IMG/VR virus record: IMGVR_UViG_3300010885_025146
Location: 1-20,345 of that record
Strand: one strand, 5' to 3'
DNA: 20,345 nt
Origin: a virus
Of the stretch, positions 1,480-20,345 are shown piece by piece. Both the position numbers and the translations under genes were made by a program. The notes under the pieces are model-generated. The model ran no database searches. It saw only the letters and a list, made by a program, of their open reading frames with translations, and was not told the origin of the DNA. Positions within the stretch are counted from its first letter, which is position 1. Every line of letters begins with the position of its first letter.

Positions 1480-1770
1480 AGGTGATTAGGTCGGTTTGTT
1501 GTGGGTTCTGTAGGTTTTGTTAATAAAATCAATGGGTTACGGTTTTGGCGGTTTGGGTGGGTTTGGGGATTGATCTGGAGGGATTGGCGTGTGGTGAGGC
1601 TTATCGGTGGTTTAGTGTGGCGGGGAGGGTTTTGGCGTGTGGTGGGGCCCTTATTAGTGTATGAGTCGCCAAGAATTTTTTGTGTGTATTAGTATGAGGA
1701 GTCGCTGAGGTTTTTTTTGTTTGTGTGGAGGAGGGAGTGTGGGAGGAGGGAGGGAACACGTCCTTGTGTT
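1480..1770 (+). other. Non-coding G/T-rich island with diverged internal duplications
   Basis: The + strand here is almost all G and T, unlike the AT-rich genes around it. It includes closely spaced G runs (GGGTGGGTTTGGGG near 1556, GGGGAGGG near 1622). TTGGCGTGTGGTG occurs at 1584-1596 and again at 1632-1644. A longer degenerate tandem pair covers about 1653-1687 and 1688-1728, both units holding ATTAGT, a GAGTCGC core and a T run. The short open frames through it encode only Gly/Trp/Arg/Val-rich strings, or their complement, and I do not take them as genes. Confidence 0.75.
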
Positions 1771-1774
1771 TTTG
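1711..1774 (+). repeat. Left arm of 64-bp perfect inverted repeat
   Basis: Bases 1711-1774, from eight T to TTTTTG, are the exact reverse complement of 20282-20345. The match stops at 1775/20281. On the other side it may be longer, because the right arm meets the window end. The arm lies in the G/T-rich island just upstream of the iteron-like repeats. Confidence 0.95.
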
Positions 1775-1776
1775 AC

Positions 1777-1817
1777 AAAGTGCATATACTACAATAAAGC
1801 GCATAACAAAGTGCATA
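1777..1817 (+). repeat. Three iteron-like direct repeats AAAG(T/C)GCATA
   Basis: AAAGTGCATA at 1777-1786, AAAGCGCATA at 1796-1805 and AAAGTGCATA at 1808-1817 are direct copies; the first and last extend to CAAAGTGCATA. They lie between the inverted-repeat arm and an AT-only-like tract (1820-1885) that ends in the promoter. Direct repeats followed by an AT-rich stretch are the usual layout of iteron origins, and also of repressor operators. Confidence 0.65.
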
Positions 1818-1848
1818 CAATAAAACTATAAAATAATTATTAATACTA

Positions 1849-1876
1849 TTGTATAAAACCAAAATTAATGTATAAT
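1849..1876 (+). promoter_or_regulatory. Putative rightward promoter for the 188-aa gene
   Basis: A perfect TATAAT (1871-1876) lies 16 nt downstream of TTGTAT (1849-1854), a weak -35. A start near 1883 would leave a leader of about 46 nt before the ATG at 1929, with GAGG at 1917-1920 as ribosome binding site. Another TTGACA at 1772-1777 overlaps the end of the inverted-repeat arm but has no good -10 at normal spacing. Confidence 0.6.
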
Positions 1877-1928
1877 AAACACATCGGATTATTTCAATTC
1901 GACTTTTATAAACTTTGAGGATATTAAA

Positions 1929-2495
1929 ATGAGTACAGAAACAGAAGTAAAAGTAGCTGCTCCACGAATCGTGACTATGGAAGACGGTACACAAGTTAAC
2001 TTTGGTAAATTAGCCAAACAAATCGCAGTAGTTGAAGACTCAACTATTACATTCAAGCTATTCAATGGTCGTTTGGTTACTTGGACAGTTGACACAGTAG
2101 GCTTAAACGAGTTTCAAAAAACAGTATTCTTATTCGGTCTAGTAGAAAAGATTAAATCTAATACTAGTTCTGTTAAAAACCTTGCAGAACTTGAAGTAGC
2201 TATTAAAAAGCAAATCGCACTACTAGAAGCTGGTCAGTTCTACACTCGTACTGGTAGTAATGGTATCTTGTTGTTAGATAACTTACAAAAAGCTTATGCT
2301 ACTGTTAAAGCACGTCAAGCAGGTTTTGAACATCTAGCTGATTTGGCTAACCCAGAAGCAGTAAAAGAAGTTCTAGCTCTTTTTGAAGGTTTCACTAGAG
2401 AACAAAAGACTTCTATTCGTAAAAACCGTGATGTTATCATTGTTAAAGCTACTTTAGACGCACAAGTTGCTAATGGTAGTGAAGAATTAGTCTAA
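1929..2495 (+). CDS. Conserved-looking phage protein of unknown function, 188 aa
   Basis: I recall similar early phage proteins that carry a PRIVTMEDGTQVNFGK-like start, but know no function for them. The protein is soluble, with no signal peptide or membrane segment. Residues 1-60 look beta-rich (ITFKLFNGRLVTWTVDTVG) and residues 70-188 mainly helical. It stands alone: a promoter directly upstream, GAGG 8 nt before the ATG, and a strong terminator 25 nt after the stop. Five of its seven Arg codons are CGT, whereas the rest of the window prefers AGA, a pattern usual for highly expressed genes. I infer an abundant, early-expressed protein, perhaps DNA-binding or host-directed; the role is unknown. 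Confidence 0.9.
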   Translation: MSTETEVKVAAPRIVTMEDGTQVNFGKLAKQIAVVEDSTITFKLFNGRLVTWTVDTVGLNEFQKTVFLFGLVEKIKSNTSSVKNLAELEVAIKKQIALLEAGQFYTRTGSNGILLLDNLQKAYATVKARQAGFEHLADLANPEAVKEVLALFEGFTREQKTSIRKNRDVIIVKATLDAQVANGSEELV

Positions 2496-2520
2496 GAATT
2501 AACTATTAGTTATTAAAAGA

Positions 2521-2550
2521 AAGGGCTTCTAGTAATAGACAGCCCTTTTT
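2521..2550. terminator. Strong intrinsic terminator between convergent genes
   Basis: AAGGGCT (2521-2527) pairs with AGCCCTT (2541-2547) across a 13-nt loop and is followed by a run of T (2546-2550). On the opposite strand the stem is followed by TCTTTT, so it can serve both the rightward 188-aa gene and the leftward operon that ends at 2565. Confidence 0.85.
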
Positions 2551-2564
2551 ATTGGTTTTTTTAA

Positions 2565-2759
2565 TTAATCTTCTTCATAACAAAATCTTGTAGAGTCTTC
2601 TTTCTTAACACTCATATAAGTTCGATACAACAAAACAAACTCCTTTTTACAGCCAAAACAACGATGTAAGGTTTCTACTACATCATCTTCTTCTATAGAA
2701 AATCTAGGGTCTGAACTTGTTGAAAAGTTGTCTTTATCTTTACAATAAGGGCATAGCAT
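2565..2759 (-). CDS. Small zinc-ribbon protein, 64 aa
   Basis: Two CxxC pairs, C3/C6 (LCPYCK) and C34/C37 (HRCFGCKK), are spaced as in a zinc ribbon, with a polar acidic loop between them. Such small ribbons bind nucleic acid or act as adaptor domains; no specific partner can be named. The start is supported by AGGAG 8 nt upstream of the ATG. It is the last gene of the leftward operon and ends 15 nt before the bidirectional terminator. The zinc-ribbon call comes from the cysteine pattern alone. Confidence 0.75.
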   Translation of the reverse strand: MLCPYCKDKDNFSTSSDPRFSIEEDDVVETLHRCFGCKKEFVLLYRTYMSVKKEDSTRFCYEED

Positions 2760-2781
2760 AAGGTAATCTCCTATTAGTTAG

Positions 2782-3210
2782 TTATTCGTATTCATAACAG
2801 CGAAGAGTTAATTCATCTAAGGTTATAGGTCTGGCGTATTTCCATTCAGAACGTTTACCTACAAAAGGATAATCATATTCATCTATATTGTACGATACTA
2901 TTTCATCAATAAAACGCTCATTAGGGGCTTCTAAGTTGTCTGAATAATCACTTACCCAACATAGAATAGGTTTGATAATATTGTCATACCAGTTAGAACC
3001 CTTACAAAAATTTTCACAGCTGATAAATGACTGTGATAGTGAGAGTTTTTCCCAACATTCATTTTCTTTCTTACGCCATAGATCATTATTCATTATCTTA
3101 AGGTTTATTCCACTTTCTTTTTCCACTACAACACAACCACTACCTAACCAAGTATAAAGTTCAGCTAGACTTTTAAAAGTATTATCTTGTTCTTTCATAT
3201 CTTTATTCAT
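2782..3210 (-). CDS. Hypothetical protein, 142 aa
   Basis: Not recognised. The protein is acidic and Trp/Tyr/Cys-rich (LWRKKENECWEKLSLSQSF, YDNIIKPILCWVSDY, FVGKRSEWKYARPITLDEL) with no membrane segment. The start has AGAGG 5 nt upstream; a second Met four codons in is possible. It lies between the zinc-ribbon gene and a pair of overlapping small genes, all read leftward. The compact aromatic composition resembles other small phage accessory proteins, but I see no motif that gives a function. Confidence 0.8.
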   Translation of the reverse strand: MNKDMKEQDNTFKSLAELYTWLGSGCVVVEKESGINLKIMNNDLWRKKENECWEKLSLSQSFISCENFCKGSNWYDNIIKPILCWVSDYSDNLEAPNERFIDEIVSYNIDEYDYPFVGKRSEWKYARPITLDELTLRCYEYE

Positions 3211-3262
3211 ATAAACCTCTTTTTAATGTACTGTGATTAATTAACTTTAAATGTGTATACCT

Positions 3263-3568
3263 TTAATAATAAATATGAATACTAAGAGCTTGTCTTTTAA
3301 TCATATTATAAGCTAAAAGAAACTCACACACTTCTTCTTCAGTTTTAAGTTTTTTAGGGTATCTTTCCTTACTATAAGGTAGGTTAGGTATAAGCATGTA
3401 ATCCTTCAGTTTACATAAGAAATATGTTTTATTCTTAAATCTAATATACCCGAAAATACTATTCTCTTTATCAGCTATAGCTAAAACGTCTTCTACGTCT
3501 GCTCCTTGTATTTGGTTAAGTATAGTAGATGTAAGTTTCTTTTTAGTTGTTATTAGTTCTATTTCCAT
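3263..3568 (-). CDS. Hypothetical protein, 101 aa
   Basis: Not recognised. It begins MEIELITTKKKLTS and alternates beta-like stretches (NSIFGYIRFKNKTYFLCKL) with a C-terminal helix (TEEEVCEFLLAYNMIKRQAL). Its start overlaps the last 26 nt of the upstream gene. AAAAGG 7 nt before the ATG provides a ribosome binding site, consistent with translational coupling. It resembles the neighbouring 95-aa protein in having a beta-rich core followed by a short helix, so the two could be related or interact; this is only an impression. Confidence 0.75.
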   Translation of the reverse strand: MEIELITTKKKLTSTILNQIQGADVEDVLAIADKENSIFGYIRFKNKTYFLCKLKDYMLIPNLPYSKERYPKKLKTEEEVCEFLLAYNMIKRQALSIHIYY

Positions 3569-3830
3569 TATTTAACCTTTTAGTACTTTCTACAAGTTCC
3601 ATAAATTGTTGTGCTTCTTCTAAAGTCTTGAAAAGATGGTTTAATACAGTTTCAGAACAATTTAGATATATTTTACCTATATACTTAAAACCTAAATCCT
3701 CCGCTAATAAGTTTTCCTCATTTACTACTACTTCAGCTCCTTTGGAAAGCTTTTTTACTGTTATATATGTGATAATCTCTGCATCTATAATAGCATACGT
3801 ATCAGGGCATGGTTGTACTCTTATAAACAT
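3543..3830 (-). CDS. Hypothetical protein, 95 aa
   Basis: Not recognised. The sequence is beta-rich at the start (CPDTYAIIDAEIITYITVKKL, GFKYIGKIYLNCSE) and ends in a helix (LFKTLEEAQQFMELVES) and a polar tail of Asn and Arg. The start is supported by AAAGGAAG upstream, a sequence that lies inside the end of the preceding 30-aa gene, whose stop overlaps this start by 10 nt. The overlaps on both sides mark it as part of a tightly coupled leftward operon. Confidence 0.78.
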   Translation of the reverse strand: MFIRVQPCPDTYAIIDAEIITYITVKKLSKGAEVVVNEENLLAEDLGFKYIGKIYLNCSETVLNHLFKTLEEAQQFMELVESTKRLNNGNRTNNN

Positions 3831-3913
3831 GCTAAACTTCCTTTACAAGTATTGAGTGCACCTTTCTTCAACCTTATTGTTATATACTCTTTACCTTCTG
3901 CTTCTACTATCAT
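3821..3913 (-). CDS. Very short gene, 30 aa, coupled to the UvrD-like helicase
   Basis: The ATG at 3911-3913 overlaps the TGA of the helicase gene as ATGA, and the TAA at 3821-3823 overlaps the start of the 95-aa gene by 10 nt, so the frame exactly fills the gap between two real genes. The product starts MIVEAEGKEYITIRLKKG and is a small, basic peptide with a beta-like front half and two Cys residues near its end. I know no family. It could be a functional microprotein or a translated spacer that keeps coupling between the helicase and the 95-aa gene. The overlaps are seen directly; translation is inferred. Confidence 0.6.
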   Translation of the reverse strand: MIVEAEGKEYITIRLKKGALNTCKGSLACL

Positions 3914-5358
3914 AAACCTACTCCTATTCTAATTTCTTCTGCTTCGTGTTTTAATTTATCAGAACAATGTATAACCTCTTCTATAATAGCAGGTAAGATA
4001 ACCTTATACTTTGCTCTTGTAACAGCTACATATAATAATTCTAAAGTTTGTCCAGTTAGCAGTAACTCAATATCACTAAAACCTTCTTTCTGATAGAAGA
4101 TATCATCATGAAGAGTTACTTCATTCCATTCTAAACCTTTAGCTTTATGCACCGTAGTTATAGTATAATCAGCTTGTTCAGGTCTATCTACAATGACAGA
4201 TTTTATTCTATTAATGTTCTTAGTTAAACCACCATCACCTAAAGTTCTAGTTAGTTTTATTAGACGAGCTAAGTTAGGCATATCTTCACTAGCTTCGTAT
4301 AATTCTACATAAGTTCTATATTGACTTAACTCTTTATTAGGGTATTTAACAGGTTCTTTAAACAATAAAGCAGATATATGATACATCTTACTCCATAACT
4401 CTTTTAAATCTCCGATAATAAATACTTTTTTACCTTCTGCTTCTGCTTCTAGTAGAAGGGTTAAGAAGGAGTTATTAGTTCTTACTAGTACAGCAGCGTT
4501 CTTCTTATTCCAGTCTAAAGGTTCTACAGCGGTTCCTATTATGTTTCTAGTATTACCAAGTATACTAGTTAACTTAGTAGCTTTATCAGCAATATCTTGA
4601 GTAAAGCGGAATGACTGTGTTAAGTAGGTTTCTTTAAAACTATCGCCTACTCTAGCCATAGCATTAATAGCACCACGCCATTCATAAATTGCTTGATATT
4701 CGTCACCTACTAGTATTATTTGTGCTTGTTGATTAAGTATAATACTTAGGATAACTGGCGAACTATCTTGTGCTTCATCAAGGTAAATTACATCGTAAGG
4801 TAGAATATGTTTTCTTAGTTGAAATAGTTTAAGATAAGTATCAGGTGTTATTTTACAAGGACGATCTTCATCACACATATTTTTCCAGTATTCTAGGATA
4901 TACTTTTTATCAATGTTAGGGTAATCGGCTTTTACAAAGTCTTCCAAACTATAAGAAGCACTTTGTGAAAAAGCTTTTATTACTTCTACTACTTCAACTC
5001 TTAGTTTTTTAAGGTCTGCTTTAATAGCTCCTGTTGTGTTATTAATAACATCATCTTTTATAACATCATCAAAAGAGTAGAAACCTTGTAGTTTCTTTTT
5101 AAACTTGTAGTTGATTATATCTCTATAAGCTAAAGAATGTATTGTTCTGCATTCTACATTAGAAGGGAACTTACTAGCTGCTTCATCAGCTATACTTTTA
5201 TTAAAGGCGATATAAAGAGAAGGTTTTTTAATCTCTTTAGCTACTTCTACTAGTGTTGTTGTTTTAGCCGCACCAGCAAAGGCTTTTACTACTAGGTTAT
5301 TACCTTGTTTTGCTAAGTCTACTATGTTTTGTTGTTCTTTGGTTCTTGTAAAAATCAT
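3910..5358 (-). CDS. UvrD/PcrA-like superfamily 1A DNA helicase, compact
   Basis: An ATP-dependent 3'-5' DNA unwinding enzyme is predicted. The SF1A motifs come in order: Q-motif-like EQQNIV (residues 8-13), Walker A AFAGAAKTTT (26-35, Lys32), DEAQD (194-198), VGDEYQAIYEWRGA (217-230), QSFRFT (248-253), TTVHKAKGLEW (401-411) and YVAVTRAK (443-450). At 482 residues it is much shorter than cellular UvrD (about 720), so the 1B/2B accessory domains are reduced. Walker A has Ala where most have Gly (AGAAKT for AGAGKT), a variant I believe also occurs in phage helicases. GGAG 6 nt before the ATG fixes the start, which overlaps the upstream stop as ATGA. It probably acts in replication restart, recombination or transcript removal. 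Confidence 0.93.
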   Translation of the reverse strand: MIFTRTKEQQNIVDLAKQGNNLVVKAFAGAAKTTTLVEVAKEIKKPSLYIAFNKSIADEAASKFPSNVECRTIHSLAYRDIINYKFKKKLQGFYSFDDVIKDDVINNTTGAIKADLKKLRVEVVEVIKAFSQSASYSLEDFVKADYPNIDKKYILEYWKNMCDEDRPCKITPDTYLKLFQLRKHILPYDVIYLDEAQDSSPVILSIILNQQAQIILVGDEYQAIYEWRGAINAMARVGDSFKETYLTQSFRFTQDIADKATKLTSILGNTRNIIGTAVEPLDWNKKNAAVLVRTNNSFLTLLLEAEAEGKKVFIIGDLKELWSKMYHISALLFKEPVKYPNKELSQYRTYVELYEASEDMPNLARLIKLTRTLGDGGLTKNINRIKSVIVDRPEQADYTITTVHKAKGLEWNEVTLHDDIFYQKEGFSDIELLLTGQTLELLYVAVTRAKYKVILPAIIEEVIHCSDKLKHEAEEIRIGVGL

Positions 5359-5576
5359 TTTCTGCTCCAGTCTTTAATCAAATCTTTTGGGATTGTATAA
5401 TTTATTCGCTGCATTTCATTTATTAAACTATCTTTTTGTAGATGGTCTATATAGTTATTGTATGTTAAGGTTCTTAAACATACATCTTTTCTTCCTTGCT
5501 CCTGTTCTCTAATCTCAGGCATATACTCTTCCTTAAAGGTTCTATCTACTTTTCGTTTGTTCCAGTAACAGATCAT
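5355..5576 (-). CDS. Hypothetical protein, 73 aa, upstream of the helicase
   Basis: Not recognised. It is a basic, polar protein (WNKRKVDRTFKEEY, EQEQGRKD, LIKDWSRK) with no membrane segment. I chose the ATG at 5574-5576 because GGAG lies 7 nt upstream and it overlaps the preceding stop as TGATG. A GTG one codon earlier (5579) is only 4 nt from the same GGAG. The end overlaps the helicase start as ATGA, so expression should be coupled to the helicase and a functional link is plausible. Confidence 0.72.
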   Translation of the reverse strand: MICYWNKRKVDRTFKEEYMPEIREQEQGRKDVCLRTLTYNNYIDHLQKDSLINEMQRINYTIPKDLIKDWSRK

Positions 5577-5866
5577 CACAATACTCCGTAACTATTGTCT
5601 AATTCAATGTAACTATTCTCTAATTGTACATTAGCATACTTCTTAGCTTCTACTAATTCAGCTTTAGAAGTAGATTTATTAAGAACTTGTAATACTTCAG
5701 TAATATAATTATCTCTAAATTGTATTTGCTCTCTTAGTCTTTCTTCTACTCTATCAGAACTTTTAACTTTTTTATTTTGTAAGTTATGTATAATACCAGA
5801 TACACTTTTAATTATATCTTCTTGTCTTTGTTTTGCTTCTATTACAAGTTTAGTTGGTTTTCTCAT
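5576..5866 (-). CDS. Hypothetical protein, 96 aa, probably coiled-coil
   Basis: Not recognised. Residues 8-85 are highly charged with regular hydrophobic positions (LVIEAKQRQEDIIKSVSGII, RVEERLREQIQFRDNYITEV), which suggests a long helical or coiled-coil protein. The start uses CGGAG 8 nt before the ATG and overlaps by one base the stop of the 40-aa gene as TAATG. The stop overlaps the next gene as TGATG. No function can be assigned beyond membership in the helicase operon. Confidence 0.8.
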   Translation of the reverse strand: MRKPTKLVIEAKQRQEDIIKSVSGIIHNLQNKKVKSSDRVEERLREQIQFRDNYITEVLQVLNKSTSKAELVEAKKYANVQLENSYIELDNSYGVL

Positions 5867-5988
5867 TATATTAACTCCGATAATTCATTGTATTTAATTT
5901 TATAACCTTTACTTAAGAATAAATCTACTGTGTTAAGGTCTTTTGTTTCTACTATTACATATTTATTAAACAGTATAAATGTTGTCAT
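5866..5988 (-). CDS. Short gene, 40 aa, filling an operon gap
   Basis: An ATG at 5986-5988 opens a 40-codon frame ending at a TAA (5866-5868) that shares one base with the next gene's ATG. Its start overlaps the last 23 nt of the upstream gene. GGAAAGAG directly before the ATG gives a ribosome binding site, though closely spaced. The product (MTTFILFNKYVIVETKDLNT, then a helix-like SKGYKIKYNELSELI) looks like a small folded alpha/beta unit. No family is recognised. The fit between neighbours is the main evidence that it is real. Confidence 0.65.
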   Translation of the reverse strand: MTTFILFNKYVIVETKDLNTVDLFLSKGYKIKYNELSELI

Positions 5989-6310
5989 ACTCTTTCCAAA
6001 ATAATTGTTCTATTTTATTCATTTCTTTATTAATATACTTATCTAAGAATTTAAACTGCTTTTCACTAAGGTTAAAACTAGTGTTAGTAGGATATCCGTC
6101 ATAGTCACAAGTGTTACAAACAGCCTCAAGAACTTCTATGTTGGTAAGTTCTGCGTATTCTGCTTCACAAAAGAAACTACTTGATTTTCTTTCCCCGTAC
6201 ACAAAGCATTCTAATAAAAGATCTACTTCATGGATAATACAAGGAATCACTAAATCATGTTCTAAGCTGGGATTAATGCCAGCAAGGTTTAGAGTATAAG
6301 CGATTTTCAT
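5966..6310 (-). CDS. Hypothetical protein, 114 aa, first of the leftward operon
   Basis: Not recognised. It starts MKIAYTLNLAGINPS, has acidic and Cys-containing central segments (FFCEAEYAEL, AVCNTCDYDGYP) and ends in a helical segment (EKQFKFLDKYINKEMNKIEQLF). The two Cys in CNTC alone do not make a metal site. I prefer the ATG at 6308-6310; a TTG two codons upstream (6316) is in frame but no better served, and neither has a strong ribosome binding site. As the first gene after the divergent AT-rich region it probably lies nearest the leftward promoter. Confidence 0.75.
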   Translation of the reverse strand: MKIAYTLNLAGINPSLEHDLVIPCIIHEVDLLLECFVYGERKSSSFFCEAEYAELTNIEVLEAVCNTCDYDGYPTNTSFNLSEKQFKFLDKYINKEMNKIEQLFWKEYDNIYTV

Positions 6311-6440
6311 GTTCAATTTTTTAATTATATTTAAAAGATGGTTTAATATAACATAAAAATTAATTTAATCCTAGATTTAATTTTTTTATTTTATTTATTT
6401 GTTGTATTAATATAAGAATAAAAATTATTTGGGTTTTAAA
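6311..6440. promoter_or_regulatory. AT-rich divergent promoter region
   Basis: The leftward operon and the long rightward operon diverge from this stretch, which is nearly all A and T. TATATT (- strand, 6345-6350) and TATAAG (+ strand, 6411-6416) are possible -10 elements, but neither has a convincing -35 at normal spacing. The presence of promoters is inferred from gene order; the exact sites are not resolved. Confidence 0.45.
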
Positions 6441-6542
6441 ATGCAAAAAATTAAAAAAATATGTGAATCCTACTTGTGCATTTTAAAAAAGTGTGGAATA
6501 ATAGCCTCACGTTATCAAAACGGCTTTAATCATGGTGGTTAG
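6441..6542 (+). CDS. Possible short leader gene, 33 aa
   Basis: An ATG at 6441 opens a 33-codon frame (MQKIKKICESYLCILKKCG at the start) that ends 27 nt before the next gene. It is basic and Cys-rich. A weak GGG lies 8 nt before the start. It may be a small protein or leader peptide of the rightward operon, or chance in AT-rich DNA. The two halves of its product (Lys/Cys-rich, then ASRYQNGFNHGG) match no family I know. Confidence 0.35.
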   Translation: MQKIKKICESYLCILKKCGIIASRYQNGFNHGG

Positions 6543-6569
6543 AGTTTATAATCAAAACTGGAGTGTGTT

Positions 6570-6977
6570 ATGACTAAAGTATTATTAGGTAAATTGAAAG
6601 ACAACAATGAAGCTTGTTATCTCACCAAACATGAATGGTCTTGTGGCTGGTATTGGTCTTTTGGTTGGCTAGGAAATAAAGACTCACACTATCATTTTAG
6701 TGCTTTTTTAAAAGATAGTAGACTAGTTTCAGAAGTATTTGAAACTACTAATATAAGCAAAGATGCTTGGTGGGTAATAAGGGATTTGTTTGTACAAGCC
6801 TATGCTTTACAAAAAGCGGCTGAAGTGTATCATCGTGGTGGTGGTCAAACAAGCAAACTAGGTACTACAGACTTAGTACGCGATAAAGATATGGTTACTA
6901 GACTTAATCAAGACTTAGAGAAAGTATTAGATACTTTATGGGCTTTTGTATTAGAAGCTATAAAGGAGGGTAAATAA
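6570..6977 (+). CDS. Conserved-looking phage protein of unknown function, 135 aa
   Basis: The protein is strikingly aromatic at the N-terminus (HEWSCGWYWSFGWLGNKDSHYHF, residues 21-43), then helical (ISKDAWWVIRDLFVQAYALQKAAEVY), then a Gly-rich loop (HRGGGQTSK) and a final helix. I recall this aromatic pattern in early proteins of phages of Gram-negative bacteria but know of no assigned function. The start has CTGGAG 7 nt before the ATG, preceded by TATAATCAAA, the same leader that precedes the gene at 7383. It heads the long rightward operon. Confidence 0.88.
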   Translation: MTKVLLGKLKDNNEACYLTKHEWSCGWYWSFGWLGNKDSHYHFSAFLKDSRLVSEVFETTNISKDAWWVIRDLFVQAYALQKAAEVYHRGGGQTSKLGTTDLVRDKDMVTRLNQDLEKVLDTLWAFVLEAIKEGK

Positions 6978-6979
6978 TC

Positions 6980-7333
6980 ATGACATACGATATAAACCAC
7001 GTTATAAACCACGTTTACACAGGCACACCAGACTACTTTGCAGGTACTAACCTGCCAACTGTACAAGTAGAAGTAGATAGCAATACTACTTATCAAGATA
7101 TAAAAGATATGTTGTTGGATAGTAACTATAGCCATCTTTATCAGTTAGAACTAAAAGAAGAGTTTCAACTTGATATTTATGAGCAAGCTGTAGAAGATAT
7201 TTTCAGTGATATTGCTAGACTAGGTAATTTAGGAAATACTCCTTACGTTTTTGAAGATATTGAATATTGCGAAGACTATCCTTGTTATTCAATCTTTACT
7301 GTAAATCTAGTAGAACAAACAGAACAATATTAA
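6980..7333 (+). CDS. Hypothetical acidic protein, 117 aa
   Basis: Not recognised. It is strongly acidic and Tyr-rich (TYQDIKDMLLDSNYSHLYQLELKEEFQLDIYEQAVEDIF in its middle third), with a C-terminal acidic stretch ending FTVNLVEQTEQY. No membrane segment or metal motif is seen. AAGGAGGG before the start is a strong ribosome binding site although spaced long. It begins 2 nt after the preceding stop. Small acidic phage early proteins often mimic DNA or inhibit host enzymes, but nothing here shows that directly. Confidence 0.82.
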   Translation: MTYDINHVINHVYTGTPDYFAGTNLPTVQVEVDSNTTYQDIKDMLLDSNYSHLYQLELKEEFQLDIYEQAVEDIFSDIARLGNLGNTPYVFEDIEYCEDYPCYSIFTVNLVEQTEQY

Positions 7334-7382
7334 ATTTTACGACTAATATAAAGTAAAAACTATAATCAAACTGGAGCAAGTA

Positions 7383-7952: not shown

Positions 7953-7955
7953 CGC

Positions 7956-13359: not shown

Positions 13360-13375
13360 TCTTTACTTAGTCTTT

Positions 13376-13406: not shown

Positions 13407-13410
13407 TTTT

Positions 13411-15984
13411 ATGTTAAAAAGATCAGAATTTCCTAGAAGTAAGAATGTATTTGTTATAAATGATGTACCAGTAAAACAAGAATTAGAGTCTGGAGATAAG
13501 TTTAGTGCTGTTAGTAACATGAGTTTGTTAACCGCACTAAGAACAGGAAAGATTAATAATATTCAAAAGGAACAAGTTGATAAAGACTATAAAGGTATAA
13601 AAGCTTCTGATATCTATACTTCTTACCTAAGTTACAGAGGGTTTGAAGAAGGTTCATTTGATTTTAAGAAGGAGTTATGTAAAGGTAAGGATAGATTAGA
13701 AGATGAAGAGTATGTTCAACTAGAACATCAAAAAGATGTTTGGGTTATGCGGTGGCTGTGGGATGAATTACAAGCATTACTAGAAGAGATACGAGTAGTA
13801 AAACCTAAAATGATTATTGTTACTGGTAAATGGAGTTTGTTTCTATTAACTGGTTGTACTTCTCTTGTTACGAATCAAGGCAACTACAAAGATAAAAAAC
13901 CTTTAGGAGGGTTAAATAAATTCAGATCAAGTATATTAAAACCACATGAGTGTTTTGGAATAGAGAATACTATCTTAATCCCTATCTATCATACCCTTAA
14001 CGCTATAACTATGCCTGATAAGCAAGTTATAATGCGTCTGGATATAGAAAAATTAGGATGGATGTATCATATAATAATGGAAAAAGGAGTTGAATACTAT
14101 ATAAGACCAGATAAGACTTATATAATAGGAAATGATAAGGTAGTTATACTAGATTATCTAAGAGAGTTACAAACAGTTTTAGATAAAGAACCAACTAAGG
14201 TATCTATAGATATCGAAACAATTTACAATTCAACTATTGATTGTATTGGTTTGGCTTACGAAACTGATAGAGGTATTTGTATACCTTTTGCATCTAAGGA
14301 TATGCCTTCTTTATTTAGTATTCAAGACGAAGCTTTAATACTAGAAGAATTGTTTAAAGTAATGGCTCACCCTAACTGTTTACACGTTGGACAGAATTAT
14401 AGTTATGATTGTCAATACTTCTATAAGCTATGGGGTATAAATGTAAAAGCTACTACAGATACTATGATCTTACATCATGTTCTGTTTAACTATTTACCAA
14501 AAGACCTTGCGTTTCTAGCTAGTCTATACTGTGAAACTTATTCCTACTGGAAAGATGAAATAGAAGCTACTAAGGAAAGTCCTGATATTAGATGGAAGTA
14601 TAACGCTAAAGATGTTATGTATACTTTAGAGATTAGTAATATATTAGAAGATATATTAGCTGGTGAATCTAAAACATTACAAGATTTTTATAAGTTTCAA
14701 CAAGATTCATTAGCTCCTGCTTTAGTAGACATAATGAATAGAGGAGTTAAAGTAGATTTAGAAAAGAAACAACAACTGCTAGACGAACTATCTTCTCTTT
14801 TAGCCCATATAGAAACAACTGTTAATAGTATTCTTGGAATGGAGGTCAATCTAAAAAGTTCTCAGCAGATTAAAAATCTATTTATGAACTTTTTTAATGT
14901 CGAACCAGTTATAGATAGAAAAAGAAAAACAGAAAGCTTTGGAAGCGAAGCAATGTTAGTTTACCTAGACTTGTACCCAATGTTAAAACCTATCATAACT
15001 CTCATATTAGAATACCGTTCTATTGGTATATTTGTTAGAACCTTCTTATCCGCTAAAGTAGACGATGATAACAGAATGAGAACTAGTTATAATGTAGCTG
15101 GTACTAGAACGTATAGACTTGCTAGTAGAAAGAATGCTTTTGGTAATGGTATGAATTTACAAAACGTACCTAGTAAAGGAAAGATTGATCTTACATACTC
15201 TCTTATGAATTTCGATATGGATACTGAAATAGAAGAAGACGTTGATATTACTACTCCTATATACGGCATTAGTAAACTACCTAACTGTAAAGAGTTATTT
15301 ATCTGTGAAGAAGACGAAATGTTCTTTGATATAGACTTAGCAGCAGCAGACGCTCGAATTATGGCTTGGGTATCTGGCTCACCTTTCCTAACTACTTTAT
15401 TTGAAGACCCTGAAGGAGACCCTTACCTACTATTAGCAATAGAATACTATAATGATAATACTATAACTAAAAAAGACTATAGAAGACAGATATTTAAAGC
15501 AGTAGTACATGGGACAAATTATTTAGGCAAAGCTAAGACTTTATCTGCTAAAGCTGGTTTGTTGGTACATGAAATAGATAAAATCCAAAAATTCTACTTT
15601 AGTTTATGTCCTGAAATTCCTAAACTACATGATGATATAGAAAGACAAGTAAGAAGTAGAGGTTATTTAGAGAATGTATGGGGGGCTAGAGGTTGGTTTT
15701 TAGATCATAATGATCCTATGTTAATGAATAAAGCAGTAGCTTGGGTTGGTTCTTCCCCTGTAGGTATATTGATTAACAAAGGTCTTGTATCTATAAGAGA
15801 AAAAGATAAAGACATAAAAGTTCTATTACAAGTTCATGACTCTTTAGCTGGTGTGTTTAAAAGAACTGATACTACAGCTAAAGATAGAATAATACAACAT
15901 TGTAGTATACCCTTACCATTTGAAGTTCCTAGGATTATACCTGTTAGTATTAAAACTAGCTTGACAAGCTATGGTGCTTGTTAG
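13411..15984 (+). CDS. Family A DNA polymerase with UDG-like N-terminal domain
   Basis: This is the phage replicative polymerase. Residues 1-220 align by pattern with a uracil-DNA glycosylase fold (VFVINDVP, DIYTSYLSYR, KPKMIIVTGK, ILIPIYHTLN), but the catalytic GEAPG and HPS motifs are lost. The 3'-5' exonuclease is intact: D267/E269 (SIDIET), N329/D333 (GQNYSYD), Y397/D401 (YNAKD). Polymerase motif A is DIDLAAADARIM (D642, with Asp647 where Glu is usual), motif B runs R692-K696-His700-Y704, and motif C is QVHDS (D810, Ser for Glu). His700 takes the place of E. coli Phe762. No 5'-3' exonuclease domain is present. AAGGAG before the ATG lies in a possible switch hairpin. Next come dUTPase and ThyX. 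Confidence 0.95.
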   Translation: MLKRSEFPRSKNVFVINDVPVKQELESGDKFSAVSNMSLLTALRTGKINNIQKEQVDKDYKGIKASDIYTSYLSYRGFEEGSFDFKKELCKGKDRLEDEEYVQLEHQKDVWVMRWLWDELQALLEEIRVVKPKMIIVTGKWSLFLLTGCTSLVTNQGNYKDKKPLGGLNKFRSSILKPHECFGIENTILIPIYHTLNAITMPDKQVIMRLDIEKLGWMYHIIMEKGVEYYIRPDKTYIIGNDKVVILDYLRELQTVLDKEPTKVSIDIETIYNSTIDCIGLAYETDRGICIPFASKDMPSLFSIQDEALILEELFKVMAHPNCLHVGQNYSYDCQYFYKLWGINVKATTDTMILHHVLFNYLPKDLAFLASLYCETYSYWKDEIEATKESPDIRWKYNAKDVMYTLEISNILEDILAGESKTLQDFYKFQQDSLAPALVDIMNRGVKVDLEKKQQLLDELSSLLAHIETTVNSILGMEVNLKSSQQIKNLFMNFFNVEPVIDRKRKTESFGSEAMLVYLDLYPMLKPIITLILEYRSIGIFVRTFLSAKVDDDNRMRTSYNVAGTRTYRLASRKNAFGNGMNLQNVPSKGKIDLTYSLMNFDMDTEIEEDVDITTPIYGISKLPNCKELFICEEDEMFFDIDLAAADARIMAWVSGSPFLTTLFEDPEGDPYLLLAIEYYNDNTITKKDYRRQIFKAVVHGTNYLGKAKTLSAKAGLLVHEIDKIQKFYFSLCPEIPKLHDDIERQVRSRGYLENVWGARGWFLDHNDPMLMNKAVAWVGSSPVGILINKGLVSIREKDKDIKVLLQVHDSLAGVFKRTDTTAKDRIIQHCSIPLPFEVPRIIPVSIKTSLTSYGAC

Positions 15985-16014
15985 TCCATAACCACAACAA
16001 AAGAGAGAAATAAA

Positions 16015-16497
16015 ATGAAATTTAAAAAAACAAGCCAAGCTAAGATACTAGAAGCACACGGTTTAGACTTTACACCAGTAAGAGCAACAGAAGGTTCAGT
16101 AGGTTATGACCTGAAAGCTTGTATAGAAGATGATTATATTTTTGTAAGACCAAAAGAGATAGTAAGAATATCTACAGGTATACAAGTTGATTTAAGTAGC
16201 CCAGAGTCGACTATGTTTTCTAATACTATCTTAGGTGGTTTTATCTACCCAAGAAGTAGTTTAGGGATTAAAGGACTTACATTAGTCAATACTACTGGGG
16301 TAATTGACGCTGATTACAGAGGAGAGATTTTACTAATAGTTACTAATAATAGTGAAAATGCTATCCATATTGCAAGAGGTGATAGAGTAGCGCAATTAGT
16401 TATAAGAGCTTGTTTTGTAGAAGAGTTTAAAGAAGTTGAGGAGCTGGAAGAGAGTAATAGAGGTGAAGGTGGCTTTGGAAGTACAGGTAAAAAGTGA
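16015..16497 (+). CDS. dut: dUTP diphosphatase (dUTPase)
   Basis: The enzyme hydrolyses dUTP to dUMP and pyrophosphate, keeping uracil out of DNA and supplying dUMP to thymidylate synthase. All five motifs of the trimeric family are present: GSVGYDLKA (I), PRSSLGIKGL (II), GVIDADYRGEI (III), RGDRVAQLV (IV) and the C-terminal NRGEGGFGSTG (V). The length of 160 residues is normal. A small insert (PESTMFSNTILGG) precedes motif II. The gene follows the polymerase by 30 nt and its stop overlaps the next start as TGATG. ThyX, which uses its product, is two genes on. Confidence 0.96.
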   Translation: MKFKKTSQAKILEAHGLDFTPVRATEGSVGYDLKACIEDDYIFVRPKEIVRISTGIQVDLSSPESTMFSNTILGGFIYPRSSLGIKGLTLVNTTGVIDADYRGEILLIVTNNSENAIHIARGDRVAQLVIRACFVEEFKEVEELEESNRGEGGFGSTGKK

Positions 16498-16694
16498 TGA
16501 GTGCGGAAGATCTTTCTACCTATCACCGAACAAGTGTAGAAGCTGCTAAGTATTTAGGCATACACCTATTAGAACTCAACAAGTACATAAACAAAAAACA
16601 AATAGATTTTATAGTAAGAGACCATAACCGTATGTTCTGTTTAAAAGAACTCCAACGATTTAAACAAGAAGTATTACTTAATAAAGAGGATTAA
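16497..16694 (+). CDS. Small helix-turn-helix (excisionase/MerR-like) protein, 65 aa
   Basis: The segment TSVEAAKYLGIHLLELNKYINKKQIDFIV matches the pattern of small winged HTH proteins of the excisionase/MerR type, in which a first helix with EAAKYLG is followed by a recognition helix and then a wing ending in FCLKELQRF. It is therefore probably a DNA-binding protein, perhaps a regulator of the operon or an Xis-type factor. I chose the ATG at 16497, which overlaps the dut stop as TGATG; a GTG one codon earlier is possible. No integrase is present in the window, so an Xis role is not implied. Confidence 0.7.
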   Translation: MSAEDLSTYHRTSVEAAKYLGIHLLELNKYINKKQIDFIVRDHNRMFCLKELQRFKQEVLLNKED

Positions 16695-16695
16695 A

Positions 16696-17415
16696 ATGAG
16701 CAAAACACAAGATAATACAATACACTGCCTAGATCATGGTTTTGTTAAACTCCATAATATAGCTTCTATGATACCAAGAAGAGAACAGGAGTTTGACGTT
16801 TCAGACATAGACCCTGCTAAAGTAGCTAGAATTAGTTTAGACAATCTACTAGAAGATAGAAAGAAAAGTTTAGATATGGAGTTAGTAGAATATCTGCTAA
16901 AACACGAACATTCATCACCTATAGAGTTTACAATGGTTTGGTTAGAGTTTAAACTACCAATATTCGTTGCTAGACAGTTCATGCGGCATAGAACCTTTGC
17001 TTATAATGAAGTTAGTGGTCGTTATGTTACTTTACCAGAAGAATTTTATATTCCTGCTGTAGTAGGAGGTAAATCTAAAAGTGTTAAACAAGGACAAGAA
17101 AATAATTTAGAGTTTGACAAGCAAGTTGATTTTCAAAAAGCTTTATTTGACCAATGTACTAATAGTTATAGCTTGTATAAATCCGCTTTAGAAGATGGCG
17201 TAGCTCCAGAACATTCTCGCTTGTTCTTGCATCTTAATCATTACACTCATTACGTTTGTAAAGTTGATTTACACAACTTGATGCACTTTTTACAGTTAAG
17301 AATGGATGCACATGCACAAATAGAAGCTAGAATCTACGCTAATGCAGTTTATACCTTGCTTTGTGATCAAATACCTGATACAATGGAGTTGTTTGATAAG
17401 TATAAATTAAAGTAA
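16696..17415 (+). CDS. thyX: FAD-dependent thymidylate synthase ThyX
   Basis: This enzyme makes dTMP from dUMP using methylene-tetrahydrofolate and reduced FAD. The signature RHRTFAYNEVSGRY (residues 97-110) fits RHRxxSxNxxSxRY except for Ala at the first Ser position (A102). The rest shows the expected EHSSPIEFTM, FARQFMRHR-type core (VARQFMRHR) and a C-terminal HLNHYTHYVCKVDLHNLMHFLQLRMDAHAQIEAR segment with the HAQ-type end. GAGG precedes the ATG. It ends just before a terminator at 17452. With dUTPase nearby, it gives the phage a folate-sparing thymidine supply. Confidence 0.95.
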   Translation: MSKTQDNTIHCLDHGFVKLHNIASMIPRREQEFDVSDIDPAKVARISLDNLLEDRKKSLDMELVEYLLKHEHSSPIEFTMVWLEFKLPIFVARQFMRHRTFAYNEVSGRYVTLPEEFYIPAVVGGKSKSVKQGQENNLEFDKQVDFQKALFDQCTNSYSLYKSALEDGVAPEHSRLFLHLNHYTHYVCKVDLHNLMHFLQLRMDAHAQIEARIYANAVYTLLCDQIPDTMELFDKYKLK

Positions 17416-17451
17416 AGTCTTGGTAGTAGACGCTCCTAAACTACCACATTC

Positions 17452-17479
17452 AGTAGGGTGTAAAAGCCCTACTCTTTTT
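17452..17479 (+). terminator. Intrinsic terminator after thyX
   Basis: AGTAGGG (17452-17458) pairs with CCCTACT (17467-17473) over an 8-nt loop, followed by CTTTTT. It lies 36 nt after the thyX stop. It divides the rightward operon into two transcriptional parts, or gives partial termination, since no clear new promoter is seen after it. Confidence 0.85.
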
Positions 17480-17500
17480 AACAAATTTACAGAAGGGATT

Positions 17501-17725
17501 ATGCTCTCAGAGAAAAGAAAACTTAACAAGAATAATACTAGTGGTGCGAAGGGTTTAACTTTCTTACCATTATGGAAGAAGTGGAATTGTAGAATAGCCT
17601 ACAAAAAGAATATCTATAGAGCTTATTTTGACGAAGGTGATAAGAATAAGGCTATAGAGTGGTTAACTAATACTAGGAAAGAACTCAATGAAAGAGATAA
17701 AGCAAACTACAAAAGTATGTCCTAA
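17501..17725 (+). CDS. AP2-domain-like small protein, 74 aa
   Basis: The stretch NNTSGAKGLTFLPLWKKW followed by NCRIAYKKNIYRAYFDEGDKNKAIEWL matches the AP2 DNA-binding fold (SGxKG, a W-x-x-W-x-x-R-I strand, a third strand, and an amphipathic helix). In phages this domain usually accompanies HNH homing nucleases; here no HNH motif is present, so it is a lone AP2 unit or a nuclease remnant. I start at the ATG at 17501 with AGAAGGGATT upstream, because the in-frame upstream TTG (17420) would translate through the thyX terminator. It overlaps the next gene by 38 nt. Confidence 0.65.
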   Translation: MLSEKRKLNKNNTSGAKGLTFLPLWKKWNCRIAYKKNIYRAYFDEGDKNKAIEWLTNTRKELNERDKANYKSMS

Positions 17726-17870
17726 TTGTGGTAATGAAGATTTACTTTTATTTAGTACGTTAGATTTAAAGACTTGTTCTGATTGTGATACTGATATTAG
17801 TTGGTTTAAGGAAGAAGGACAAACAGATTTATTTAGTTTTGGAAAAGTAAATCATACTAATAGAGAGTAA
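17688..17870 (+). CDS. Small zinc-ribbon protein, 60 aa
   Basis: C11/C14 (VCPNCGNE) and C30/C33 (KTCSDCDT) form two knuckles of a zinc ribbon, with a hydrophobic hairpin between them (DLLLFSTLDL) and a conserved-looking end, ISWFKEEGQTDLFSF. I recall a small phage family with this LFSTLDLKxCxDC...WxxEEGQ pattern but know no function. GGAAAG lies shortly before the ATG, within the AP2 gene that it overlaps in another frame. Nucleic acid or protein binding is likely. Confidence 0.75.
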   Translation: MKEIKQTTKVCPNCGNEDLLLFSTLDLKTCSDCDTDISWFKEEGQTDLFSFGKVNHTNRE

Positions 17871-17873
17871 TAG

Positions 17874-18086
17874 ATGAAAAAAGTTAAAGTAGAAGCAGAC
17901 CATAGAAATATTACAATACATGAAGCAGTTGCTTGGACAGATAAAAACTGCACTTTAGATGATGTTAGAAAGCGTTTAAGAAGTAGATCAGTAGCTTTTA
18001 TACTTCTTAAACATCTAAGAGAGAGTGTTATCTACATTAACACACTAGAAAACGAATTGACAGAACTAAGAAAAGGTAAAATATGA
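17874..18086 (+). CDS. Hypothetical protein, 70 aa
   Basis: Not recognised. It is a helical, basic protein: DDVRKRLRSRSVAFILLKHLRESVIYINTLENELTELRKGK covers most of its length and could be a helical hairpin or coiled coil. The gene starts 3 nt after the zinc-ribbon gene and overlaps the ligase start as ATGA, so it is translationally coupled to ligase. Confidence 0.75.
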   Translation: MKKVKVEADHRNITIHEAVAWTDKNCTLDDVRKRLRSRSVAFILLKHLRESVIYINTLENELTELRKGKI

Positions 18087-18967
18087 AAAACATGCAAAAA
18101 GTTCTACACTATCACATTGAAGAGGCTAAAAAGAAACCAAAAATACTAGGTGATTATATAGTTTCTGAAAAACTAGATGGTTGGTTTACTACGATAAGTT
18201 TTAATACTAAAGTAGGTTGGTTATTTCCTAAATCATCTAGCGATAGAATAATACCTTCAATGACTCATGCTAAAGAGTATTTTGAACGGTTACCAGTACC
18301 TAATAGAAATATTAACCTAATTGCAGAAGCATATATACCAGATATGGACTTCTACACTATGAATGGTATATTTAACAGAAGTAAAGGTGAATGTCAAGGA
18401 AGGGATGTAGAGTTCTATATTCACGACATTCTTCATACTTCAGCAGTTAGCAACGATCTTCTAACAGATAGACGTACTGCTTTAGAAAGAATGAAATCTA
18501 TTAGAGAGCTTTGTTTAGAGCATAATAAGAAGATTAAAGAAGTTAAACCATTAGTCATTACAAATAACAGTAAAGAATGGTTCAGACATTTTGATGATAT
18601 TACTTATTCTGGTGGTGAGGGTATAATACTTAAACAAGCTGATAGCTTCTACCACCAAGGCAAACGTAACTCTAGTCTTATGAAAATGAAATTAGAAGAT
18701 ACTTTTGATCTTTTATGTGTTAACATGTATAAAACTATAGGAGAGAAAGGTAATGAGAATTTAAATCTACTGTTAAAAGATAAAACTGGAAGAGAACAAC
18801 CAGTAAGAATAGGTAAACATGAAGATATAGAACATTTTACTAATGTTGAAAGTCCTATTGGTAAAGTAGTTGAGATTAAAGTTATGAAAAGAAATGAAGA
18901 TGGTAGTTACAGAGAACCTAGATTTGTAGCTATTCGCGAAGATAAAACTATTAATGAGATTGACTAA
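18083..18967 (+). CDS. ATP-dependent DNA ligase
   Basis: The enzyme seals nicks using ATP. Motif I SEKLDGWF gives nucleophile Lys30, motif III contains E82 (LIAEAYIP), motif IIIa is FYIHDIL (111-117), motif IV GGEGIILK (177-184) and motif V MKMKLEDTFDL (Lys201/Lys203). Residues 1-205 are the nucleotidyl-transferase domain and 210-294 an OB fold (LLKDKTGREQPVRIGKHEDI). At 294 residues it is a minimal phage ligase. The stop overlaps the 29-aa membrane peptide as TAATG. It acts with the polymerase on lagging-strand or repair nicks. Confidence 0.94.
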   Translation: MKNMQKVLHYHIEEAKKKPKILGDYIVSEKLDGWFTTISFNTKVGWLFPKSSSDRIIPSMTHAKEYFERLPVPNRNINLIAEAYIPDMDFYTMNGIFNRSKGECQGRDVEFYIHDILHTSAVSNDLLTDRRTALERMKSIRELCLEHNKKIKEVKPLVITNNSKEWFRHFDDITYSGGEGIILKQADSFYHQGKRNSSLMKMKLEDTFDLLCVNMYKTIGEKGNENLNLLLKDKTGREQPVRIGKHEDIEHFTNVESPIGKVVEIKVMKRNEDGSYREPRFVAIREDKTINEID

Positions 18968-19056
18968 TGATAACATATATAAGTAATAATATTATAACGC
19001 TTCTAGCTTTTATTAGTTGTCTGACTTACCTATATTTTTGGTGGAAGAAGCTATGA
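18967..19056 (+). CDS. 29-residue single-pass membrane peptide
   Basis: The ATG shares a base with the ligase stop (TAATG), and the 29-codon frame ends in a TGA that overlaps the next ATG (ATGA). The product has a polar start (MITYISNN), a 16-residue hydrophobic stretch (IITLLAFISCLTYLYF) and a WWKK end, so it is a typical small inner-membrane protein with a cytoplasm-side positive tail. No family is known to me. The evidence is the double overlap and the clean membrane pattern. It could regulate a host membrane protein or be a holin-like remnant; neither is shown. Confidence 0.6.
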   Translation: MITYISNNIITLLAFISCLTYLYFWWKKL

Positions 19057-19082
19057 AATATATGGGAAGTAAGAACAGATAA
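19053..19082 (+). pseudogene. Possible remnant of a DNA adenine methylase start
   Basis: An ATG overlapping the previous stop as ATGA opens MKYMGSKNR and then meets TAA. MKYMGSK(N/R)R is the characteristic N-terminus of D12-type (Dam-like) DNA adenine methyltransferases, which begin with the AdoMet-binding M(K/R)YxGSK segment. The following bases give no continuation in any frame: the same frame gives only a short tail with stops, and 19083-19150 has no further gene. This could be the fossil start of a deleted methylase gene, or chance identity over nine residues. Confidence 0.4.
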
Positions 19083-19150
19083 GATACTGGAAGTAAAAGA
19101 GCAGTAGAAAAACTATTTATATTGTAATATTAACATAAAGAGGACAAATA

Positions 19151-19762
19151 ATGAGAATACTTATACTAGATACAGAAACAACAGGCATAGCTTCTACAGA
19201 TGAAGTACTAGAGCTTGCCTACATCACTATTGACAATAACTTTATTACACAACAAACTTTTGTAGCAAAGTACCGTCCTAGTGTTCCGATTAACCCACAT
19301 GCTCAAGCAGTACATGGAATAGAGTTTAAAGACTTATTATCCTACCCTTTATCGAGAACTATTGACTTAGGACAAGAAAAGATAGATTTTATAATAGGTC
19401 ATAATATCAGTTTTGATAAACGTATGTTAATACAATCAAATAAAGGTTTAGAATCTATCTTAGAAGAAGCTAAGTATATTGATACTATGGCTTTAGCTAA
19501 GCTTATTACTAAAAGTACAGGTGTTAAGTTTCTAAATAATAAACTTGATACTTTAGTGGAACACTACTATCCAACCGCTTCTAGTGGTCTGATAGAACTA
19601 CAAAATAACTCTAAATACCATGATGCTTTGACTGACTGTAGAAAAGTTAATATAGTATTAAATGCTGTGAGGAATGTATTTCCTGCTCTTACTACTGTAG
19701 AATCTATGTATGAGTTCTTAGAAAGTGTAGCTCCTAAAAATAAAACTAAGAAAGAAGGTTAA
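19151..19762 (+). CDS. DnaQ-like DEDDh 3'-5' exonuclease
   Basis: A proofreading-type exonuclease is predicted. Exo I is ILDTETTG (Asp7, Glu9), Exo II is IIGHNISFDKRML (Asp in SFDKR), and Exo III is the HDALTDC segment, which supplies the His and Asp of the DEDDh type. The AVHGIE element between Exo I and II is typical of PolC/epsilon-like exonucleases. At 203 residues it is a stand-alone domain. The polymerase already carries its own exonuclease, so this may trim other 3' ends, degrade host DNA, or act in recombination. GAGGA is 8 nt before the ATG. Confidence 0.92.
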   Translation: MRILILDTETTGIASTDEVLELAYITIDNNFITQQTFVAKYRPSVPINPHAQAVHGIEFKDLLSYPLSRTIDLGQEKIDFIIGHNISFDKRMLIQSNKGLESILEEAKYIDTMALAKLITKSTGVKFLNNKLDTLVEHYYPTASSGLIELQNNSKYHDALTDCRKVNIVLNAVRNVFPALTTVESMYEFLESVAPKNKTKKEG

Positions 19763-19764
19763 AA

Positions 19765-20088
19765 ATGGCTAAGATAGAAGAAGCATTATTAGAAAGAAAG
19801 AATATGTATGGCGATTTTGAAGACCATGCTAGGATAAGTCAAGAACTTAAACACCTATTTGAAATTCAACTAGAAGAGAAAGGTAAAAAACTGCCACCTT
19901 ACCAGAAAGAAGCAGTAGACATGGTTTTTCACAAACTAGCTAGGGTAGTTAATGGTGATAATTACTACATAGACAGTTGGCGTGATATAGTAGGTTATAT
20001 GCAACGTGTTGTGGAGATACTAGAAAGAACTGAAGGTAGTACAGATTGTACTGTTACTAAGTTCACTGTTTCAGGAGTTAAAGTATAA
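19765..20088 (+). CDS. DUF6378-like phage protein, 107 aa
   Basis: The pattern ERKNMYGDFEDHARISQELK, then YQKEAVDMVFHKLARVVNGDN, then DSWRDIVGYMQRVVEIL is that of the phage DUF6378 family (RxxxYGxF, K-x-AR-xxNG, DSWxDIxGY), identified from memory and not by a search. It is an all-helical small domain. The family is often found among phage nucleotide-metabolism and replication genes, which fits the neighbouring ligase, exonuclease and ThyX/dUTPase, but the reaction is unknown. AAGG precedes the ATG. Its stop overlaps the next gene as TAATG. Confidence 0.8.
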   Translation: MAKIEEALLERKNMYGDFEDHARISQELKHLFEIQLEEKGKKLPPYQKEAVDMVFHKLARVVNGDNYYIDSWRDIVGYMQRVVEILERTEGSTDCTVTKFTVSGVKV

Positions 20089-20279
20089 TGGAATGGTTAG
20101 CAATAAGTGCAATAGTATTAGCAATACTCATGTGTGTTTGTTTAGTCTGTACTGCTTATTATTGTTATAGTAATTTAGAAGATTTTACTTTGTTCTTTAG
20201 TATGATGGGTTGTTACTTTGGTCTTGTAGCTTGTGTATTTATTATAATTGAAGTAGTTAAAGTTAGTTTTATGGTTTAA
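20088..20279 (+). CDS. Small membrane protein with two transmembrane segments, 63 aa
   Basis: Two hydrophobic stretches are seen, roughly residues 3-27 (LAISAIVLAILMCVCLVCTA) and 34-59 (FFSMMGCYFGLVACVFIIIE), joined by a short acidic loop (YSNLED). It is rich in Cys and Tyr. A small two-pass membrane protein could be a holin-type or host-membrane-targeting protein, but no endolysin gene adjoins, so I leave the role open. The start overlaps the previous stop (TAATG), with AGGAG upstream. It ends the rightward cluster, 2 nt before the right inverted-repeat arm. Confidence 0.75.
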   Translation: MEWLAISAIVLAILMCVCLVCTAYYCYSNLEDFTLFFSMMGCYFGLVACVFIIIEVVKVSFMV

Positions 20280-20281
20280 CC

Positions 20282-20345
20282 CAAAAACACAAGGACGTGT
20301 TCCCTCCCTCCTCCCACACTCCCTCCTCCACACAAACAAAAAAAA
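20282..20345 (-). repeat. Right arm of the 64-bp perfect inverted repeat
   Basis: This is the exact reverse complement of 1711-1774. It starts just after the last stop codon and runs to the last base of the window (eight A), so the true repeat may continue. On the + strand this arm is C/A-rich, mirroring the G/T-rich left arm. Confidence 0.95.

Follow-up and report, generated by a model that had tools for sequence, protein, structure and literature searches.

The virus record IMGVR_UViG_3300010885_025146, one DNA stretch of 20,345 bp that was analysed at its full length and is here called the window, raises a simple question: why do its replication genes lie between two exact inverted copies of a 64-bp sequence, one of which stops where the contig stops? 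The original prediction, made from the letters alone, offered three meanings for this pair (1711-1774 and 20282-20345): an invertible segment, part of a longer terminal inverted repeat, or a contig break at some repeat that exceeds 64 bp. The last is the best supported of the three, as related phages carry inverted copies of 6-7.8 kb at this place and contigs end at the edge of the repeat with exact inverted ends of a length typical of assemblers. Very probably, each arm is the edge, on the side of the module, of a long inverted repeat in a quadripartite tailed-phage genome, in which a replication module (M), the repeat, a late or virion module (L) and the inverse repeat follow one another and close into a circle. 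The observation is right, and it is more interesting than was first stated.

In the window itself, direct comparison showed the left arm to be the reverse complement of the right arm at 64 of 64 positions. The match is bounded at 1774 on the module side and truncated at 20345, where the right arm stops because the record stops: the window is the entire record. Since the next-best inverted repeats in the window were far shorter (~18-32 nt) and imperfect (72-89% complementary), chance is excluded for the arms; a repeat scan of the window found no third copy. Around the left arm 780 nt (1150-1928) are noncoding, and the arm forms the inner end of a tract of ~435 bp that is strongly rich in G and T; the right arm begins just past the stop codon of the last open reading frame (ORF) of the module; no convincing gene was found at either arm, in keeping with the claim that both lie outside genes. 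The original prediction also placed essentially every replication and nucleotide gene seen in the 18,507 bp between the arms; only a RadC fragment lies outside them, in the left flank, and family searches of the ORFs found no virion gene between the arms (Table 1).

Comparison with related genomes located the same edge elsewhere. The window polymerase as query retrieved two contigs at 51% identity, G001 (IMGVR_UViG_3300024982_000007, 40,139 bp) and G002. The module of G001 spans 24.6 kb, has the core genes of the window and lies between two inverted 7,751-bp copies, which are 99.9% identical (7 mismatches) and whose inner edge lies at the same place as the left arm of the window. On the left of this module the boundary cuts a tRNA-Ser(GCT) gene (L012:12316-12401) inside its final 13 nt, so that the 3' end of the tRNA is supplied by the repeat; on the right it lies in the final codons of the last module gene, which ends 24 nt inside the repeat. 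The repeat encodes a Rep_3 plasmid-type initiator, small proteins and also fibre-like ORFs; the contig stops within the outermost of these ORFs. G002 represents the same phage in a different sample, and its contig ends exactly 127 bp into the repeat on both sides. G005 (20,613 bp; polymerase 34-51% identical), a more distant replication-module relative, also ends in exact 127-bp inverted repeats.

The other half of the proposed genome was seen in late-module contigs, for which a terminase search gave 35 loci. Exact 121-bp inverted repeats form the ends of three TerL-bearing contigs of 28-31 kb (G030, G032 and G034), on which the genes for head, packaging and tail are found. Two different tail genes of G034, one at each end of the late module (L178:7179-8263 and L177:1-509), run into the repeat in the same frame and owe to it a common C-terminus of at least 39 identical residues; on G030 and G032 each of the two terminal genes has its stop in or at the edge of the repeat. 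Moreover, G035 (IMGVR_UViG_3300048672_000386, 66,315 bp) carries all four junctions on one contig: its first 49 positions are the inverse of 28812-28860 and its last 28 (66288-66315) are the inverse of 34818-34845. These matches delimit a repeat of 6,034 bp between L and M, of which the second, inverse copy is assembled at its two edges only, and the contig ends are consistent with an implied circle of 72,272 bp. In two further contigs, G003 and G009, Rep_3 lies right of the replication module at the equivalent place and virion genes come next, which gives the order M - Rep_3 block - L.

Thus relatives display the inverted repeat flanking M, the inverted repeat flanking L, and the contiguity of M, repeat and L. 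The repeat bounds i) M in the window (18.5 kb), G001, G002 and G005; ii) L in G030, G032 and G034; and iii) both in G035, so that the architecture was seen in four divergent lineages of uncultivated phages (the window; G001/G002; G005; G030/G032/G034/G035). For the window we infer that the repeat covers at least the left flank and extends past 20345. The suggestion of a longer terminal inverted repeat stood as to length but not as to position: in G035 the repeat lies inside a circular map and is followed by another single-copy module.

Contig ends of other phages indicated how the short exact arms arise. None of 20 contigs with a Dda-like helicase from other phages had inverted terminal repeats, and three complete distant phages had no long inverted repeats. 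Direct terminal repeats were present in four of the 20 (121, 123, 127 and 127 nt), and also in G006 and G008 (127 and 114). Since 121 and 127 are thus also the lengths of direct terminal repeats elsewhere, the exact inverted ends are best read as assembly overlaps at a longer true repeat; the M and L contigs of the clade had no terminal direct repeats, as expected if the repeat splits the assembly. An artefact of assembly or amplification at the contig end, whether a fold-back or a chimera, would account for a right arm that ends exactly with its contig, and a fold-back-like end does exist in the set (a near palindrome at 54774-55027 of G003). However, the same pattern recurs at module boundaries in eight contigs from several metagenomes (window, G001, G002, G005, G030, G032, G034 and G035) and in none of the 20 controls, with lengths expected from overlap at a true repeat. 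An artefact is therefore extremely improbable, and a fold-back of the right arm, which had been named as a possible refutation, very unlikely.

The same contigs bear on inversion. Inverted repeats surround the small fibre switches of the P1 C segment and the Mu G segment, which are driven by serine invertases; the repeats here bracket a whole replication module, and no serine invertase was detected. If the window came from an ordinary circular phage whose M segment is flipped by a recombinase between short repeats of ~64 bp, so that the sample contains a mixture of the two orientations, exact inverted repeats around a long segment would indeed be expected, and the 11-kb L-region of PhiH1, with ISH1.8 at its flanks, is invertible (PMC6210493). 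However, a short repeat with two orientations should make contigs branch into two flanks at its outer end, whereas G002 and G005 enter the same sequence for 127 nt at both ends and the repeats of G001 and G035 run for 7,751 and 6,034 bp. In addition, no tyrosine recombinase (PF00589) or serine recombinase (PF00239) was found in the 13 contigs searched, the near-complete G035 included, and no protelomerase (PF16684) in the 13 either; the PF00589 and PF00239 searches gave matches in most control genomes. We consider such a short-repeat switch quite improbable. Inversion as such would be plausible, as for any long inverted repeat.

The symmetry of G001 at both ends, and the inverted ends of M and L contigs alike, would also suit linear DNA, either one genome that ends in long inverted repeats or two segments with common terminal repeats. 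On the other hand, no head or packaging genes were seen in G001, which has only fibre-like ORFs toward its outer ends, so that it is not a complete phage. Moreover, the common ends of separate segments would show the same edge to both modules, whereas the G035 repeat is internal, lying between L and M on a single contig with distinct edges facing each, and the order M-repeat-L is found in G003 and G009 as well. A linear or two-segment genome has, in our judgement, very little chance of being right.

The edges of the repeat have a common composition. Read outward from the single-copy region, all eight edges tested were rich in C and poor in G, ranking in the top 0.02-1.8% of windows of their own genomes for C minus G. 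Of four edges that were folded, those of G035 and G005 did better than shuffles and those of the window and G002 did not. A short dispersed regulatory element, such as a terminator or promoter region present twice in inverse orientation by chance, would fit a right arm just past a stop codon, a noncoding left arm and the strong hairpin at the L edge of G035 (z -5.1). However, the repeats of relatives are 6-7.8 kb long and hold coding genes, the window has no third copy, and its right arm folds no better than shuffles (z -0.2); we hold this explanation to be highly improbable. As a scan of window positions 1100-2000 also found no intrinsic terminators, a hairpin terminator is unsupported in the window. 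C-rich, G-poor outgoing sequence suits Rho-dependent terminators, and from composition a Rho-type stop at the window edge is only a guess.

Several points weigh against the quadripartite circle. The architecture, with its putative copy number and circularity, was derived from assembled contigs. In the window itself the second copy is visible for 64 bp only, and the relatives compared are not close kin of the window virus or of its missing side. G003 (55 kb) and G009 (66 kb) cross one repeat region only and have no inverted repeat; either these contigs stop short of the second copy or their lineages are without one. The orientation of Rep_3 in G021 does not fit a simple mirror, and many other late-module contigs end without an inverted repeat. 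The end of L that carries Rep_3 was considered as proof of mirror copies and was dropped, since late gene order varies between lineages and G021 does not fit.

The long repeat of the proposed circle carries initiator genes. G001 has one Rep_3 initiator (PF01051 and PF21205 above cut-off), and the G035 repeat has two, one reading toward L and the other toward M; the winged-helix domains Rep3_N and Rep3_C were both above Pfam cut-offs in G001, G003 and both G035 genes, from which the assignment comes, as the window ends before this part. No Rep_3 was found in 31 Dda-bearing contigs of other phages. The window shares short motifs with these repeats. GCGAC-N6/7-ACTAATA occurs twice in the window flank (at 1652 and 1687); across 1.1 Mb of related contigs its only other sites were the two repeat copies of G001, where it likewise points outward, and 100 shuffled windows had none. 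When the left flank of the window and the repeat regions of G001, G003 and G035 were pooled, GGCGACY was the most enriched word (GGCGACC on top, with GGCGAC/GCGACC), and GGCGAC pointed from M toward L in 14 cases against 2 in the other direction. This motif had been spotted by eye before the words were counted, and in the window alone its one copy in that orientation is not significant. The copies in the repeat regions are irregularly spaced, possible iterons, and GGCGACC/T is a candidate initiator, partition or recombination site. Together, the sharing of the first motif and the word count favour a window repeat that would exceed 64 bp. At L164:9904-13500 (G035 29904-33500), L011:7336-7616 and L103:17783-18053, GGCGACC/T also recurs, oriented from M to L and with a TTAATA-like stretch after it.

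How such a genome might work can be proposed in steps, which rest on gene content and analogy and are to that extent weaker than the map. The two copies would probably be kept identical by homologous recombination or gene conversion, the phage carrying Sak4-like and exonuclease-like proteins, and the same exchange is likely, to a similar degree, to flip M relative to L. Somewhat less probably, the C-rich, G-poor edges might stop transcripts that leave M and L before they reach the replicon. More tentatively still, each repeat could hold a Rep_3 origin, and exchange during replication could yield double rolling circles and, from them, concatemers for packaging. The two inverted Rep_3 replicons (some with two initiator genes each) would then be twin origins, recombination between which flips the modules and drives concatemer formation, a scheme we regard as possible but doubtful.

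The proposed layout resembles several known systems in different respects. Chloroplast genomes, too, map as circles in which two nearly identical inverted copies separate two single-copy regions, and their short-read assemblies break at the repeat; on the other hand, the implied phage circle is ~72 kb, and its repeat carries Rep_3 initiators whereas that of chloroplasts carries rRNA genes. Herpes simplex virus 1 (HSV-1) has two unique segments (UL and US) flanked by inverted repeats, but its genome is linear with several repeat types and its host of an unrelated kind. In both systems such repeats give inversion isomers (PMC3147054), which in chloroplasts are described as equimolar (Palmer 1983 as cited in PMC3147054). 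The yeast 2-micron plasmid is also a circular replicon split by inverted repeats, where inversion is linked to double rolling circle replication and can amplify the replicon (PMC3147054), but it uses 599-bp repeats with Flp/FRT, whereas the phage has no detected site-specific recombinase and its initiator-bearing repeats are ten times longer. The nearest phage case found was the L-region of Halobacterium virus PhiH1, a large functional segment of a tailed virus bounded by an inversion-mediating element (PMC6210493); there the repeat is the insertion sequence ISH1.8 on one or both sides, whereas here it is an initiator-bearing block in which no transposase was noticed. No precedent for a quadripartite tailed phage was found in the open-access literature, subscription papers and preprints being outside the search. 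Provisionally, the chloroplast-like layout appears new for tailed phages, and, as far as we found, a twin-origin strategy of double rolling circle concatemers would likewise be undescribed for them.

If the quadripartite reading is true, a genome plan like that of chloroplasts and herpesviruses is added to the tailed phages, and whether exchange between inverted repeats drives phage concatemer formation becomes testable. There is also a practical side: short-read assembly tends to split such genomes into replication and virion contigs that each end in short inverted repeats, a feature that also counts among the signs by which a viral contig is called complete. CheckV reported 624 IMG/VR contigs with inverted ends; among the ones with estimates, only 33.2% reached the high-quality standard (PMC8116208), and split-module contigs could contribute to this low share. 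Structure-aware binning could reunite the replication and virion halves.

Table 1. Features of the window and, in the last three rows, of contig G035.
Feature	Position	Strand	Basis or remark
Left flank, inferred continuation of repeat, one copy visible	1-1710	.	GCGAC-N6/7-ACTAATA motif, GGCGACY word
RadC-like JAB domain protein, truncated by contig end, left flank	3-287	-	PF04002 5e-12
203-aa protein, function unassigned, first gene outward of left arm	538-1149	-	ORF; no family match; weak match to one G003 flank protein among repeat proteins of relatives
Tract rich in C/A and poor in G (C 37%, G 8%) read outward from module, possible common boundary for transcription termination	1340-1774	-	Composition
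Motif copy GCGACTCATACACTAATA, read outward from module	1652-1669	-	
Motif copy GCGACTCCTCATACTAATA, read outward	1687-1705	-	
Left arm of inverted repeat, M-side edge of proposed long repeat	1711-1774	+	Exact match to right arm; position equals inner edge of G001 7,751-bp repeat
Single-copy replication module M (18,507 bp)	1775-20281	.	Gene content; core common to G001, G003, G009
First gene inside left arm, orthologue at same module end in G001	1929-2495	+	36% identity to G001
UvrD-like helicase	3910-5358	-	PF00580, phrog_1967
Dda-like helicase	7956-9275	+	phrog_325
Exonuclease-like protein, weak family match	10409-11431	+	phrog_1218 7e-7; alignment with relatives
Sak4-like ssDNA-annealing/recombinase ATPase	11428-12279	+	phrog_124 9e-9
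DNA polymerase family A	13411-15984	+	PF00476
dUTPase	16015-16497	+	PF00692
ThyX	16696-17415	+	PF02511 6e-41
ATP-dependent DNA ligase	18083-18967	+	PF01068, phrog_114
DnaQ-like 3'-5' exonuclease	19151-19762	+	PF00929
Last module gene, read outward, stop 2 nt before right arm	20088-20279	+	ORF; G001 counterpart ends 24 nt inside repeat
Right arm, truncated by contig end	20282-20345	-	Window is whole record; G002, G005, G030, G032, G034 end alike
G035 late module L	50-28811		
G035 repeat	28812-34845		6,034 bp
G035 module M	34846-66287		

Searches beyond the contigs described above gave little. Megablast of the window against annotated phages and a search for the exact arm pattern in viral contigs found no match; the window polymerase had no match in bacterial genomes and only ~22-25% matches in plasmids, and when aligned with distant phages it proved too diverse to yield a search pattern. 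A query with the outer end of the repeat in G001, made for the late module of that phage, matched G001 alone, and a further tail-gene search found no new late-module contig with an intact end. Two TerL relatives (49% and 42%; L257 and L258) lie on contigs binned into metagenome-assembled genomes of Patescibacteria (Roizmanbacteria, Paceibacterota), a weak hint at the host; there the exonuclease and Rep_3 queries had no match, and no inverted copy of the contig start turned up.

Other details were noticed in passing. In G001 and G002 the family A polymerase is split by ~0.6 kb with a small ORF (L003:11946-12239), possibly an intron with a homing endonuclease; the window gene is continuous. The right end of G003 (L105:14774-15027) forms an imperfect palindrome into which sequence from 0.6 kb upstream is inserted, and is probably an assembly fold-back; G009 starts with a 16-bp tandem repeat (CGCACGCACGCGCACC; L124:1-143) on the outer side of its replication module. 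In the window, an array of an 8-nt unit (GGTTAGTC and variants; 1351-1416) at the outer end of the G/T-rich tract has a telomere-like look, and directly inside the left arm (1775-1825) ACAAAGTGCATA occurs twice, 31 bp apart, as possible regulatory sites.

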